Shown: positions 1,126 through 10,710 of the stretch, in pieces
How positions within the stretch are numbered: position 1 is the stretch's first letter
Layout of the letters: every line of letters begins with the position of its first letter
DNA from: Ancylobacter crimeensis
GTDB lineage: Bacteria > Pseudomonadota > Alphaproteobacteria > Rhizobiales > Xanthobacteraceae
NCBI RefSeq assembly: GCF_023016805.1
Contig: NZ_JALKCH010000004.1
Location: 310,001 to 374,000, forward strand
DNA: 64,000 nt
Direction: 5' to 3'
Notes under the pieces: generated by a model
Seen by the model: only the letters and a program-made list of their open reading frames with translations
The model's database searches: none
What the model was told of the DNA's origin: nothing
Position numbers and translations under genes: made by a program

Positions 1126-1206
1126 CCGTCGCACCGCCGCAGGGGCACCCCTTGGCGGTCCAACGTGCCTCCGGCATGGTCCCCCACTCGAACGAGGAGG
1201 GACGCG

Positions 1207-1989
1207 ATGAACGCAAAGACCGGCACCGAGGACTGGAACCCCGGCCTCTACCTCACCTTCGCCGACGAACGCACGCGGCCCTCGCGCGACCTGCTCGCGC
1301 AGGTGCCGCTTACCGCGCCGCGTCGCATCGTCGATATCGGCTGCGGGCCGGGCAATTCCACCGGGCTTCTGGTGCAGCGCTGGCCGCAGGCGCAGACGCA
1401 AGGCATCGATTCCTCACCGGCCATGATCGAGGAGGCGGCCCGCACCCTGCCGGGGGTACGGTTCGAGGTTGCGGATGTCGCGACATGGCAACCCGAACCC
1501 GACACCGACCTGCTTTTCGCCAACGCGGTTTTCCAGTGGCTGCCCGAGCATCCCGCCATCCTGCAGCGGCTCCTTCAGGCCCTGCCGGAAGGGGGCGTGC
1601 TGGCGGTGCAGATGCCGGATAATCTGACCGAGCCCACCCATCGGCTGATGCGCGAAACCGCCGCGGACGGGCCGTGGGCGCAGAAGCTCCGGAGCGCCGC
1701 GCGCGCCCCGCTTCCCCCGGTCAGCAGCTATTACGACCTGCTGGCCCCGTACGCCCGGCATGTCGACATCTGGCATACCTTCTACAACCACCCGCTGGAC
1801 GGGCCCGAGGCGGTGGTCGAATGGGTGAAGGCGACAGGCCTTCGCCCCTTCCTCGCCCCACTCGATGCCGGGGAGCGCACCGCCTTCCTTTCCGCCTATA
1901 CCGCGCGGATCGCGGACGCCTATCCCCGGCGGGTCGACGGCAAGGTGCTGCTGCGCTTTCCGCGGCTGTTCATGGTGGCCGTGCGGTAG
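1207..1989 (+). CDS. tam: Trans-aconitate 2-methyltransferase
   Basis: A 260-residue cytosolic class I SAM methyltransferase. The SAM-binding loop [11 protein letters not shown] lies near residues 39-49, and the N-terminal [21 protein letters not shown] stretch is typical of Tam. Tam methyl-esterifies trans-aconitate, a spontaneous by-product that inhibits aconitase. An in-frame ATG exists 42 bases upstream, but this start has GAGGAGG six bases before it and matches the family N-terminus. The gene stands alone between the ettA terminator and a convergent gene 3 bases away. Confidence 0.88.
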
Positions 1990-7028: not shown

Positions 7029-8030
7029 TCAGTCGGTCGCCGTGGCCGTCTTGGTCGCGTTGGTGGTTTTGGCGGTGGGCCCGGCAGTGGCCGTGGAGGC
7101 TTTGGCCGCGGAGACCGCGTCGCTGGTCGCGCTGGCGGGAATGACGGCGCTGGTGGCGGTGATGCCGAGCGGCTTTGCAGGGGTGTTGGCCGGGGCGCTG
7201 GCCGGAACGGCGGCAGGCCTCGCGTCGGCCGAGCGCTGCTGGGAATCGACATTGGCCGAGATGGCGCGGGCGAGGTCGCGGCTGAAGCAGTCATAGCCCC
7301 AGTCGTTCATGTGGAACTTGTCCTTCCAGAGGAAGGCCTCGAACGGCATGCCGTCGGCCTCGTGCCACTCCCGCATCAGCGAGAAGCGGTGGAACACCGG
7401 CACGTTCTCCTCCTCGCCGATGCTGGACATCAACGTCACCATCGGTGCGGTGTCGGCGTCGGCCACGATGCGCGGGGCGTATTGCGCGTCGACGATGAGC
7501 ATGTCGGCGCCGATCGCCCGGGTGCGGGCGATCGCTTCGCGCAGGATGCCGCCGGCGGTGGCGAGGCCATCGGCGCGGAACAGCGCGTTTACGCCGGCCT
7601 GCCAGATCACGAGGTCCGGCTTCAGCGCCGCCACGTCGGTGTCGAAGCGGGCGAGCATCTCGGGACCGTCCTGCCCGTTGATGCCGCGATTGATCACGGT
7701 GATGTCGCGGCCCGGATAACGCTGGCGCAGCAGCGCCTGCAGGCGCGCCGGATAGGTGAGAGCGGGCGCGCTCGCTCCGGCCCCGGCGGTGGAGGACGAG
7801 CCGATGGCGACGATGGTGACCGTGCCGGTGCCGGCGATGGCGGCGGCGAGCCGGGGCATCGGCTTTCCCAGTTTCACCAGCGTCGCATCTGCCGGGCAGG
7901 CGGCCGGAAGCAGCGTGGTGGCTGCGGCAGGTTGGACAGCGAAAAGAGGCCCGCCGGCCAGCGCGGCGGCGAGTGCGGCGGGCGCCAGCGCGAGACGGGC
8001 ATGGCGGGGAAGGCAGGAAAACGTCTTCAT
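7029..8030 (-). CDS. SGNH/GDSL-type hydrolase, exported, with intact catalytic residues
   Basis: A 333-residue protein with a signal peptide (residues 1-37). The SGNH blocks are visible: GSSST with nucleophile Ser79, GVN with Asn148, and the DKFH pair Asp237/His240. The last 70 residues form a low-complexity Ala/Thr/Pro tail. It is homologous to the product of the gene directly upstream (shared patterns such as RYP, LVIWQ and AQYAPR). That gene ends 2 bases before this start, and an OpgC-family acyltransferase gene precedes it. In known polysaccharide O-acylation systems, SGNH proteins work with membrane acyltransferases, so a periplasmic acyl transfer or deacylation role is inferred. The substrate is unknown. 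Confidence 0.82.
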   Translation of the reverse strand: MKTFSCLPRHARLALAPAALAAALAGGPLFAVQPAAATTLLPAACPADATLVKLGKPMPRLAAAIAGTGTVTIVAIGSSSTAGAGASAPALTYPARLQALLRQRYPGRDITVINRGINGQDGPEMLARFDTDVAALKPDLVIWQAGVNALFRADGLATAGGILREAIARTRAIGADMLIVDAQYAPRIVADADTAPMVTLMSSIGEEENVPVFHRFSLMREWHEADGMPFEAFLWKDKFHMNDWGYDCFSRDLARAISANVDSQQRSADARPAAVPASAPANTPAKPLGITATSAVIPASATSDAVSAAKASTATAGPTAKTTNATKTATATD

Positions 8031-8032
8031 CT

Positions 8033-8836
8033 TCAGTGGGATCCGACCGTCTTCAGCTCGACGCCACTATTGATCATGCGGATCAGCAGATGGCCGATGC
8101 AGTTGTGGACATTGTTGAACAAAGCGGCGCCGCTGCGCCCGCCGCTGAAGTCGAACACCGCTTCCTCGCTCCAGTAGCGCATCAGCGCCGTGCGATCGAA
8201 GAAGCCCACCCCGTTGCTCCGCGTCAGCCAGCGCATCGTCGTCACATAGGGGGTGACGTCGAAGGCGAAGTCGGTTCGCGGACTGTATTGCGGGCTCACC
8301 AGGATGATGTCGGAGCCCGCCTCCTGCGTCAGTCGGATGCCCTCCTGAAGGGCCTGCGCGAATGCCTCGATGTCCTCGCCGCGGATGGCGTCATAGGTGC
8401 CGGTCTGCCAGATCAGCAGGGCCGGCTTGTCCTTGGCGAGAATGCCCGGCAAGGCGTCGAGAACCTCCCGCGCGGTGCGGCGCGGCTGGTTGCGCACCAG
8501 CACGCTCACCCGCCCGTCGGGATAGCGCGTCCGCAGCCCTTCCTGCATGTAGTTCGGAAAGGTGCGGGGCGCCGCCTCGCGCGGTTCCTCCGTGGGAGCC
8601 GCGCCCGTCGCCGGGGTCGTCCGGGAAACGCCGTTCGCCGAGTTCAGCACGAGGATCGTGGTCTTGGTCGCATTGTCCTTGAGCCCGGCGGCGAGGCGCG
8701 GCAGCGACACGCTTTCCATCAGGCCCGCGGGCATGCTGCACGCAGAGGTCGCCGCATCCTGCGCCCGCGCAGCCGGAAAGCCGCCGGCTCCCAGCAGGAC
8801 GGTCGACAGGAAAAGTGCGAACCCGATTCGTGCCAC
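8033..8836 (-). CDS. Catalytically degenerate SGNH-fold protein (probable pseudoenzyme), exported
   Basis: A 267-residue protein with an N-terminal signal peptide ending ARAQ and a GTG start. It parallels the downstream SGNH hydrolase along its length (LRTRYP, LLIWQTG, ILVSPQYSPRT). The catalytic blocks have changed: GSSST becomes NSANG, so the nucleophile aligns with Ala67; GVN becomes GTY; and the C-terminal DxxH becomes NNVH. By eye only the His remains. It is probably a partner or glycan-binding paralogue rather than an esterase. It sits between opgC-like and the active SGNH gene with gaps of 15 and 2 bases. Confidence 0.75.
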   Translation of the reverse strand: MARIGFALFLSTVLLGAGGFPAARAQDAATSACSMPAGLMESVSLPRLAAGLKDNATKTTILVLNSANGVSRTTPATGAAPTEEPREAAPRTFPNYMQEGLRTRYPDGRVSVLVRNQPRRTAREVLDALPGILAKDKPALLIWQTGTYDAIRGEDIEAFAQALQEGIRLTQEAGSDIILVSPQYSPRTDFAFDVTPYVTTMRWLTRSNGVGFFDRTALMRYWSEEAVFDFSGGRSGAALFNNVHNCIGHLLIRMINSGVELKTVGSH

Positions 8837-8851
8837 GAGCGACCGCGCCGT

Positions 8852-10114
8852 TCATTTGCCCTTACGCGCGCCAAGCCCGCGTTCGACGCGAGCATACCAC
8901 GAGAGCATTGCGGAGAGTGCAACCATGAGTGCAATGCCGGCGACGCTGAGCACCAACTGCATCCAAACGGTGCCGACGACCTCGTTCAGCACGAAATGTG
9001 CGGCAAAAGAAAGGAAGACTCCGAAACAGAAGATCTCCAGCGAGTGCTGGCCGCACAAAATCATCGGCCGCAGCACCGGCGCCTCGAGCAGCGCCGCGTT
9101 CGGCGGTATCAGGCGGACGGTGACCACCGCGAGCGCGAGGAAGTGCAGCAGGCGCAGCGGGGCGAGGTCGGTCTTGCTGATCGGGTAGATGAAGCGGCCC
9201 ACGGCGTCCGGCACGAAGCCTTCCATCGGCGGCCACCACCAGCTCAGGACCACCAGGAGCGACAGCACGAGATAGAGGCTCGCCAGCACCAGCACGGCCC
9301 GGTTGCGCACCAGCGCGCCCAGCCGGTCGCTCCCGCCGAGCCCGCACCAGCCGCCGAACACGAACAGGAACTGCCAGGCGATCGGGTTGAAGAACCAGCC
9401 GCGGTCGTCGGGATAGGCGGTGAAGTTCCAGCCGAACCAGCCCGCGCCGAGCCAGATGAGGAAGGAGACGACGAGCGTGGTGTCCGGCAGCCGCTTCAGC
9501 AGCCACAGCACGGGCGGGAAGCTCGCCAGCAGCACGATGTAGAGCGGCAGCACGTCCATGTTGGCCGGGCGGAAGCGCAGCAGCAGTGCCTGCACGAGCG
9601 CGACGTCGGGCTCGCTCAGAAATTGCAGCGCGCCCATCTCCTCGGCGTAGAGCGGGTTCGAGAACCGGCCGATGACGTAGGAGATCTCCGCCAGATACAC
9701 CACGAACAGGAAGATGAAGGCGACATAGAGCTGCCACGCCCGCCGCAGGATGCGTGCGGAGGTGACGAAGGTGCCGCTGCTGTCCATCTGCCGCCCATAG
9801 ACCAGAGCGGCCGTGTACCCGGAGATGAAGACGAAGATTTCGGTGGCGTCGGAAAAGCCGAAATTGCGCGTGGTGAACCAGTTCAGCACGTTGTTCGGCA
9901 CATGGTTCAGGAAGATGAACCACAAGGCGAGGCCGCGGAACAGGTCGAGCCTCAGGTCGCGGCCGGTGCGGGCCGGCTTCTCGCCCGCCCGCCCGTCCTT
10001 GCCGGAGGTGTCTTCCAGGCTGGCGTCGCCGGGGGGCAGCACGCTCGATGCCCCGCGACGCAGTTCCGGGGAACGTTGCCGATCGAGCGTTGCCTGCTCG
10101 CTGCCGTGCCGCAC
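8852..10114 (-). CDS. OpgC-family membrane acyltransferase
   Basis: About 420 residues with roughly ten hydrophobic segments. The signature opening is DLRLDLFRGLALWFIFLNHV, followed by NWFTTRNFGFSDATEIFVFISGY, as in OpgC proteins that succinylate osmoregulated periplasmic glucans. Members of the wider acyltransferase_3 group carry acyl groups across the inner membrane onto glycans. A 65-residue polar cytosolic N-terminus precedes the first membrane span. Two close GTG codons (10120 and 10114) are possible starts; 10114 has the better spacing from GGAAGG. It starts 17 bases after the DUF308 gene and is followed by two SGNH genes, suggesting one glycan-modification operon. Confidence 0.85.
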   Translation of the reverse strand: MRHGSEQATLDRQRSPELRRGASSVLPPGDASLEDTSGKDGRAGEKPARTGRDLRLDLFRGLALWFIFLNHVPNNVLNWFTTRNFGFSDATEIFVFISGYTAALVYGRQMDSSGTFVTSARILRRAWQLYVAFIFLFVVYLAEISYVIGRFSNPLYAEEMGALQFLSEPDVALVQALLLRFRPANMDVLPLYIVLLASFPPVLWLLKRLPDTTLVVSFLIWLGAGWFGWNFTAYPDDRGWFFNPIAWQFLFVFGGWCGLGGSDRLGALVRNRAVLVLASLYLVLSLLVVLSWWWPPMEGFVPDAVGRFIYPISKTDLAPLRLLHFLALAVVTVRLIPPNAALLEAPVLRPMILCGQHSLEIFCFGVFLSFAAHFVLNEVVGTVWMQLVLSVAGIALMVALSAMLSWYARVERGLGARKGK

Positions 10115-10131: not shown

Positions 10132-10710
10132 TCAGCTCTTGAGTCGCAGGCCGAGCATCAGCACCGCGACGCCGTTGAAGACGAGGTCGATGCCGAGCAG
10201 CAGGCCCAGCACCCACAGCGTGTTCGCCGGCCAGCCCATCACGATCAGCGCGCCGAGCACCAGCGTGGCGATGGCGGAGACTACCAGCCAGCCCCAGCCC
10301 GGCGCCGGGCGGGCGCCGAAGCCCGCCGCAAGGCGGAAACCGCCGGCGATCAGCAGCGAGAAGCCGAGGATCAGCGTGATGATCCCGGCCGCGACGACGG
10401 GATTGATGATGGCGATGGCGCCCGCAACAAGGTGCAACAGGCCGTCGAGCAGCCAGAAGGCGAAGGAGCCCCAGCCCTTCACGCCAAAGGCGTGGATGAT
10501 CTGCGCGACGCCGCTGATGGTGAGGAACACGCCGAGCGTGACCACGGAGAGCACCGTGCCCACCACCTCATTGCCGAGGATGTAGGCGCCGGCGAGGATC
10601 ATCAGGATGCCCAGGGCGACGAACCAGCCCCATTTTGCGTGGAGCGCGGCGAGCTTGCCGGCGATCTGGCTGCCGGGCGACGGCGAGAGGGAGTCGGATG
10701 GAAAGGTCAT
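10132..10710 (-). CDS. DUF308 / HdeD-family membrane protein
   Basis: A 192-residue integral membrane protein with six hydrophobic helices in three Gly/Ala-rich pairs (for example GWFVALGILMILAGAYIL and GLLHLVAGAIAIINPVVAA). This is the layout of the HdeD family, linked to acid stress in enterobacteria; the molecular function is unproven. The ATG at 10710 has GGGGTG seven bases upstream. It is probably the first gene of the minus-strand unit running into the OpgC-like gene. Confidence 0.85.
   Translation of the reverse strand: MTFPSDSLSPSPGSQIAGKLAALHAKWGWFVALGILMILAGAYILGNEVVGTVLSVVTLGVFLTISGVAQIIHAFGVKGWGSFAFWLLDGLLHLVAGAIAIINPVVAAGIITLILGFSLLIAGGFRLAAGFGARPAPGWGWLVVSAIATLVLGALIVMGWPANTLWVLGLLLGIDLVFNGVAVLMLGLRLKS

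Follow-up and report, generated by a model that had tools for sequence, protein, structure and literature searches.

Why should a gene for an OpgC-like membrane acyltransferase be followed by two genes for related SGNH proteins, one of which lacks the catalytic residues? The question is raised by positions 7029–10114 of a 64,000-nt stretch of Ancylobacter crimeensis contig NZ_JALKCH010000004.1 (the whole stretch is hereafter called the window), where opgC, a proximal SGNH gene and a distal SGNH gene are transcribed in this order from the minus strand, behind a DUF308/HdeD-like gene. The presence of a conserved dead copy beside OpgC, together with the usual working copy, suggests a split sugar-acylating machine in many alphaproteobacteria. 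Our preferred explanation, to which we give a probability of about 0.5, is that OpgC carries the acyl group across, that the dead SGNH protein is a fixed subunit of OpgC serving in acceptor binding or docking, and that the intact SGNH protein performs the transfer.

An intact and a degenerate SGNH protein beside opgC

An earlier note on this DNA had described opgC followed by two paralogous SGNH genes, and coordinates, profiles and BLASTP bear this description out. The gaps are 15 bases between opgC and the proximal SGNH gene and 2 bases between the proximal and distal genes, and the two SGNH proteins are paralogues with 30% identity over 233 columns (BLASTP E 1e-24). Both exceed the curated cut-off (80 bits) of the Pfam family PF25182 (NonGDSL), with 166.3 and 207.5 bits, and the distal protein alone also passes the cut-off of Lipase_GDSL_2. 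Each has a hydrophobic, signal-like segment at its N terminus, as judged by crude hydropathy. In the whole genome, one OpgC and two NonGDSL matches were found above cut-off, all of them in the module of the window; a third NonGDSL match, on another contig, falls far under the cut-off.

The distal protein retains Ser79, Gly119, Asn148, Asp237 and His240 in the order S-G-N-H; alignment agrees with the earlier listing of Ser79, Asn148, Asp237 and His240 as kept. Every feature of the SGNH superfamily (the fold, and Ser, Gly, Asn and Asp-x-x-His in order) was found in this protein. Its AlphaFold2 model has a predicted local distance difference test (pLDDT) score of 92.9 and a predicted template modelling (pTM) score of 0.91, and the best match in the PDB is the acetylmannan esterase CEX (6hh9, E 1.9e-12). 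The C terminus of the distal protein (window 7029–7240) forms an Ala/Pro/Thr-rich tail of about 70 residues.

The proximal protein has Ala67 at the nucleophile position and Tyr148 at the block-III Asn position, as noted earlier, and lacks Asp-x-x-His. The further substitution that had been given, Asn for the Asp, is not secure: Ser235 and Ala238 align to Asp237 and His240 of the distal protein, in a gapped stretch. The conserved Cys33 and Cys246 are kept. The AlphaFold2 model of the proximal protein (pLDDT 89.7, pTM 0.87) resembles SGNH esterases, the best Foldseek match being 1jrl (E 6.9e-7), and comparison with 3rjt gave a VIA Z of 19.1 with a root-mean-square deviation of 3.0 over 183 residues. 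Structure prediction, run singly for the two proteins, thus produced an SGNH fold in each. With the predicted fold present and the catalytic residues missing from the residue tables, the view of the proximal protein as an inactive SGNH stands; according to the model, it is a member of the superfamily by fold and not by catalysis.

The OpgC protein of the window contains the motifs D57-x-x-R60-x10-H71 and F94-x4-G99, whose D, R, H, F and G residues are invariant across 17 OpgC proteins; DxxRx10H and FxxxxG are given as AT3/TmAT motifs (PMC12423673, in part). Profile match and both motifs place the protein in the OpgC_C/TmAT (AT3) superfamily, and the presence of DxxRx10H upholds its earlier description as an OpgC-like membrane acyltransferase. 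At E values up to 1, OpgC_C and Acyl_transf_3 were the only Pfam matches. A crude hydropathy scan gave eight partly overlapping segments above threshold, the AT3 family having about 10 transmembrane helices.

Distribution of the opgC–SGNH–SGNH unit

Two surveys were made, one of 289 genomes of the class Alphaproteobacteria, in which NonGDSL was counted above the Pfam cut-off, and one of 148 genomes of the organism's own family, with a threshold of E 1e-20. The class survey showed NonGDSL in 31 of 289 genomes (48 matches). OpgC is present in 30 of these 31 and, above cut-off, in 31 of the 258 genomes without NonGDSL (Fisher p 1e-22, kinship ignored). In 28 of the 31 genomes, opgC is immediately followed on its own strand by a NonGDSL gene; in the three exceptions the NonGDSL gene is on another contig (G049), OpgC is missing (G052) or the two genes are 2.6 kb apart (G282).

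Within the family, NonGDSL was found in 145 genomes and OpgC in 138, every one of the 138 carrying NonGDSL, and opgC and NonGDSL genes are adjacent among the matches listed. At least two NonGDSL matches occur in 136 of the 138 genomes with OpgC versus 0 of the 10 without it; seven of these 10 have one match (E 1e-47 to 1e-40) and three have none.

Gene order was then compared in 80 named loci, the closest of which are Ancylobacter or Ancylobacter-like, with an OpgC identity of 78–80%. The complete opgC–pseudo–active triplet is present in 75 of the 80, a count that favours close kin because these loci are the best 80 of 582 relatives. Among the other five, four are at contig ends (L121, L134, L136, L146) and one has the pseudo gene split over two frames (L131). 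The neighbourhood survey proposed in the earlier note, which had allowed that the three genes might rarely occur together, thus found a conserved unit. The module is also present in many Bradyrhizobium species and in Azospirillum brasilense Sp7 (AMK58_RS24165/70/75), where neighbouring genes of the triplet share 4 bases at each of the two joints and the pseudo protein carries the annotation 'hypothetical protein'. In a phylum sample of 397 genomes, NonGDSL was found at E 1e-25 in 34 genomes, all in the class; no match at this threshold lay outside Alphaproteobacteria, a result that describes the sample and is not proof of absence.

Conservation of the degenerate copy

In an alignment of the 48 NonGDSL domains from the 31 class genomes, Asp-x-x-His is present in 29, all of which have Ser, Gly and Asn too, and is absent from 19. 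When the named loci were added, the nucleophile position of 94 pseudo proteins was found to be occupied by Arg in 39, Gly in 25, Ala in 19 and Ser in 7, and neither the block-III Asn nor Asp-x-x-His was found in any of the 94. In 104 intact proteins the catalytic positions are uniform; the uniformity of Ser and Asn is independent for only 29 of them, sorted by Asp and His, because in the other 75 Ser and Asn, along with Asp and His, had served as sorting criteria. The pseudo proteins have a conservation pattern of their own, with Thr121, Asp149, Phe159, Tyr197, Asp214, Asp229 and His244 each kept in 85–97% of the 94, and the two cysteines are retained in 94/94 pseudo and 100/104 intact proteins.

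The median ratio of nonsynonymous to synonymous substitution rates (dN/dS), obtained by the simple NG86 method from 366 non-independent pairs, was 0.19 for the pseudo gene (maximum 0.43), 0.26 for the active gene and 0.13 for opgC. We read these values as suggesting that the pseudo-SGNH protein is under constraint and not in decay.

Position and origin of the degenerate copy

The degenerate copies occupy one position, directly 3' of opgC, here called the slot. Among 35 slot proteins (28 from the class survey and seven from 18 further loci), 23 are degenerate and 12 keep Asp-x-x-His, versus 0 degenerate among 30 distinct proteins encoded elsewhere (for one of which, L075, starting 0.7 kb from the contig start, the 5' neighbour lies outside the data). 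The 18 further loci comprise seven with an SGNH gene in the slot, four of them degenerate, and 11 with an intact SGNH gene elsewhere, among which L246 repeats L096. An opgC directly precedes the gene of every protein in the main degenerate clade (17 members) and of the two other degenerate proteins of the class survey. This clade spans 11 families and has a support of 100/99 in a tree built without the active-site columns; L067_9124, which fell outside it on a weakly resolved branch of a quick tree (16 rows), is inside it in the careful tree.

The intact SGNH gene is placed more variably in the 17 genomes of this clade: it follows directly in eight, is upstream on the same strand in one, divergent in three (G072, G247, G168), on another contig in three (G194, G109, G028) and not found above cut-off in two (G249, G104). 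In the metagenome-assembled genome Alphaproteobacteria bacterium AP_16 (L128:440-5153), the opgC–pseudo unit is tandemly duplicated and is followed by just one active SGNH gene. Judged by gene order, the pseudoenzyme thus goes with OpgC and not with the active twin.

A single origin of all 19 degenerate proteins in the tree was rejected (p 1e-4), and catalysis was therefore lost at least twice; in the best trees, the losses in family f2 fall in two lineages, with modest support. In genus g4 of this family (L232, L233, L235, L238, L090), Arg-x-x-Arg or a similar sequence stands in place of Asp-x-x-His, Ser and Gly are kept, and a separate intact paralogue is present in four of the five genomes. 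These residues give the degeneration in g4 the look of an incomplete, more recent stage. A second intact NonGDSL copy was found in 20 of 23 genomes with a degenerate slot versus 1 of 12 with an intact slot (Fisher p 9e-6, labels set by hand), a link that is suggestive, since only two or three contrasts are independent.

OpgC clades and glucan markers

A quick tree was built from 65 OpgC proteins. Every OpgC partner of the 17 proteins in the main degenerate clade falls in a single clade of this tree (SH-aLRT 98, 23 rows), which also contains five proteins that have an intact neighbour and one without. A second clade (SH-aLRT 100, 19 rows) contains all seven opgG-linked OpgCs and has no NonGDSL neighbours. 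Because the clades are separate, the OpgC of the module is not by descent the opgG-associated OpgC. Four genomes (G109, G194, G158, G232) carry an OpgC of the opgG-type clade alongside an SGNH-linked one. The opgC of the window neither groups with nor adjoins opgG, and in its own genome opgG and opgH are on another contig, C24.

The 58 genomes with OpgC or NonGDSL were searched for OpgG (PF04349), PF10091 (the cyclic-glucan synthase domain), GH17 and BcsB, and all 289 for an NdvC-like protein. Among the 17 genomes of the main degenerate clade, OpgG was found in three and PF10091 in two, together in four genomes, which leaves 13 with neither; the NdvC-like protein is present in 11 and BcsB in one, and five genomes have neither OpgG nor PF10091 nor the NdvC-like protein. 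None of these markers, GH17 included, is common to all 17 genomes, the NdvC-like protein coming closest. This protein is enriched in genomes with NonGDSL (19/31 versus 39/258, kinship ignored). The absence of OpgG and PF10091 from 13 of the 17 genomes and the separate OpgC clades do not support osmoregulated periplasmic glucans (OPGs), whose analysis the earlier note had proposed, as the general substrate.

Two further loci of the A. crimeensis genome bear on glucans. On a contig other than that of the module, opgG is followed by an opgH-like glycosyltransferase gene (L184:6311-9903). At L183:3002-8191 lies a divergent gene pair, one gene encoding a GT2 and a GH17-like part and the other a GH17-like and a further part, with weak PF00332 matches; we take this pair to resemble NdvB and NdvC of Bradyrhizobium. 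Going by the function of NdvB and NdvC, our best guess is a beta-1,3/1,6-glucan substrate where NdvB/C-like genes exist. No paper was found in a literature search on succinylation of cyclic glucan in Azospirillum. The presence of opgC has been tied to drying resistance, and SGNH or GDSL proteins are not mentioned in the available part of that paper (PMC13231049).

Proposed mechanism and its rivals

In the mechanism that we propose, OpgC would bind acyl-CoA on the cytoplasmic side and present the acyl group at the periplasmic face, as suggested by its family and motif. The pseudo-SGNH protein would be a dedicated non-catalytic subunit of OpgC, standing in place of the fused SGNH domain of OafB and OatA, and may bind the acceptor glycan or dock the catalytic partner. 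The intact SGNH protein would be a soluble periplasmic enzyme that forms an acyl-serine intermediate and passes the acyl group to the glycan. Tree and counts are consistent with an evolution in which a single SGNH protein first did both jobs; with a second intact copy present, the opgC-adjacent copy would have lost catalysis at least twice while keeping its OpgC-bound role. Gene order, residue losses, predicted fold, conservation and co-occurrence were observed, whereas the contact between the proteins and the chemistry are what we infer from them. More tentatively, the OpgC carrier may work only with a bound dead SGNH protein and a free catalytic twin, which would be the partner suspected for stand-alone AT3 proteins, the dead subunit having evolved repeatedly.

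Several observations weigh against this proposal. An intact SGNH protein occupies the slot in nine class-survey loci and three further ones, so the dead subunit is not general. The dead copy occurs with OpgC in three genomes (G249, G104, G565) that have no intact NonGDSL protein above threshold, weaker SGNH matches being present in G249 and G104 only. In some family genomes, such as G377, G414 and G384, OpgC is present in up to eight copies beside two to five NonGDSL proteins, and the OpgC partners of the two f2-family dead copies lie in a third OpgC group. Amino-acid identity between relatives is lower for the pseudo protein (median 0.71) than for the active one (0.80), and the dN/dS values are rough because synonymous divergence is high. 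The sign test of degeneration against a second copy, on its two or three independent contrasts, was not significant, and no open reading frame (ORF) fusing OpgC and SGNH was found in two scanned sets of loci. Finally, the frequency of AT3-only proteins is said to indicate strongly that AT3 can act alone (PMC9558356, in part).

This last point also serves the main rival of our proposal, in which acyl transfer is the work of OpgC by itself, the intact SGNH protein acts as an esterase in trimming or recycling the acyl group, and the role of the pseudo-SGNH protein is to bring the acceptor to OpgC, as a glycan-binding protein or chaperone. The best PDB matches of the intact protein are indeed carbohydrate acetyl esterases, and the link of its gene to opgC is looser, the gene being on another contig, divergent or not found in eight genomes. 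However, the 12 loci with an intact SGNH protein in the slot fit a transferase partner at least as well, and SGNH transferases and esterases are not separable by sequence here; we regard this rival as rather unlikely. The earlier note had offered two roles for the pseudo-SGNH protein, glycan binding, which may still apply, and allosteric control of its twin. If the latter were so, the two would form a heterodimer and OpgC would be a mere neighbour, and it is true that pseudo and active proteins are paralogues with one fold and that the active gene directly follows the pseudo gene in eight class loci and 75 named triplets (Desertibaculum being probably in both). Where the order varies, however, the pseudo gene stays with opgC (17/17), while the active gene directly follows in 8/17. 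Because the pseudo gene is always directly 3' of opgC (23/23), is duplicated together with it in L128 beside one active gene and occurs without a twin above threshold in the three genomes named above, allosteric control is less favoured and appears improbable.

There is likewise little to be expected of an explanation in which the module serves ordinary succinylation of OPGs or cyclic beta-glucan, OpgC having its Rhodobacter or Brucella role and the SGNH proteins being accessory lipases. OpgC family membership, the opgGH genes and ndvB/ndvC-like pair of the genome itself and the enrichment of NdvC-like proteins speak for it; the scarcity of glucan markers in the 17 genomes, the seven opgG-linked OpgCs in a clade of their own and the genomes in which both kinds of OpgC occur together speak against it. 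The proximal protein might, lastly, be an enzyme whose active site has moved. Conservation and purifying selection speak for this, as does the frequency of Ser185 (78/94) and His244 (82/94) among the pseudo proteins, but neither residue is constant in the wider clade, and no position in the 94 sequences is Ser throughout or His throughout. As far as the alignment tells, an alternative invariant Ser/His pair, such as an intact site at other residues might be expected to leave, is thus absent, and a relocated site is highly improbable. We therefore retain, at the probability given above, the proposal of a dead OpgC subunit and a catalytic twin.

Gene calls and neighbouring genes

The genes of the module and the gene upstream of it are given in Table 1. 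The GTG start of opgC at 10114 was adopted as given; the reading frame is open to 10216.

Table 1. Genes of the module and its upstream neighbour in the window
Product	Protein	Length (aa)	Position (strand)	Start codon	Evidence
OpgC-like TmAT/AT3 membrane acyltransferase	P0003	420	8852..10114 (-)		PF10129 E 1.6e-137; PF01757 E 3e-8
Pseudo-SGNH	P0002	267	8033..8836 (-)	GTG	PF25182 E 2e-61; residue tables; AlphaFold2; PDB fold matches
Intact SGNH	P0001	333	7029..8030 (-)		PF25182 E 8e-49; Lipase_GDSL_2 E 2e-20; residue table; AlphaFold2
DUF308/HdeD-like membrane protein, upstream of opgC			10132..10710 (-)	chosen in this analysis	PF03729 E 2e-19

The DUF308 protein was considered as a part of the module, an involvement that the earlier note had thought possible. 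Among the 80 named loci, 16 other class loci and the window, the gene is upstream of opgC in the window and seven named loci (L103-L109) only. Because these seven are the Ancylobacter-type ones, its involvement is not supported, and it was judged to be a genus-level neighbour. In many named loci the flanks presumably contain argD, argF, an hslO-like gene, apaG and an O-succinylhomoserine sulfhydrylase-like gene (names suggested by the sequences), and the recurrence of these genes was taken as synteny. Elsewhere in the window, ARAGORN calls a tRNA-Thr (cgt) at 1218-1309 (-), inside an ORF at 1165-1989 (+) that we take to be methyltransferase-like; the call is probably a false positive.

Comparison with known systems

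The NonGDSL family is already catalogued, since Pfam PF25182 groups these proteins; both SGNH proteins of the window match it, and the model covers intact and degenerate proteins alike. The split of NonGDSL into intact and dead proteins tied to OpgC was not met in the literature found on OpgC with SGNH or GDSL proteins; the module is not described in the available parts of PMC12423673, PMC9558356, PMC2824669 and PMC9833829, and a search for an SGNH pseudoenzyme with an acetyltransferase found no paper. Whether stand-alone AT3 proteins have a separate partner is left open in PMC9558356 and PMC9833829 (both in part), the former leaning towards none being needed. The module supplies candidate partners for OpgC, which PMC9558356 (in part) calls stand-alone. 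It is also a case in which, on more than one occasion, an enzyme fold has given rise to a conserved non-catalytic protein next to one and the same membrane protein, and experiments could therefore separate docking from catalysis.

The OPG succinyltransferases OpgC/MdoC of Rhodobacter, Brucella, Dickeya and E. coli share with the module an OpgC-type membrane acyltransferase, but OpgC/MdoC is described as a stand-alone AT3 protein (PMC9558356, in part), and the opgG-linked OpgCs sampled here belong to a different clade without SGNH neighbours. The AT3–SGNH fusions OafB and OatA are alike in having a 10-transmembrane-helix, acyl-CoA-using domain of the same superfamily and a periplasmic SGNH domain that performs the final step (PMC9558356, PMC9833829 and PMC12423673, all in part). 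Whereas both domains are in one chain in OafB and OatA, the module of the window consists of separate polypeptides, with an OpgC_C domain and two SGNH proteins, one of them dead. A membrane acyl carrier with separate periplasmic SGNH-like proteins is also found in AlgI/AlgJ/AlgX and PatA/PatB, and the alginate system has two SGNH-like proteins with distinct roles (PMC9487903, in part). However, the membrane part in AlgI and PatA is an MBOAT protein, whereas P0003 is an OpgC_C/Acyl_transf_3 protein with no MBOAT match. AlgJ and AlgX have a circularly permuted H-S-G-N order and both have a Ser-His-Asp triad (PMC9487903, in part), whereas the order in the window is S-G-N-H and one of the two proteins is dead.

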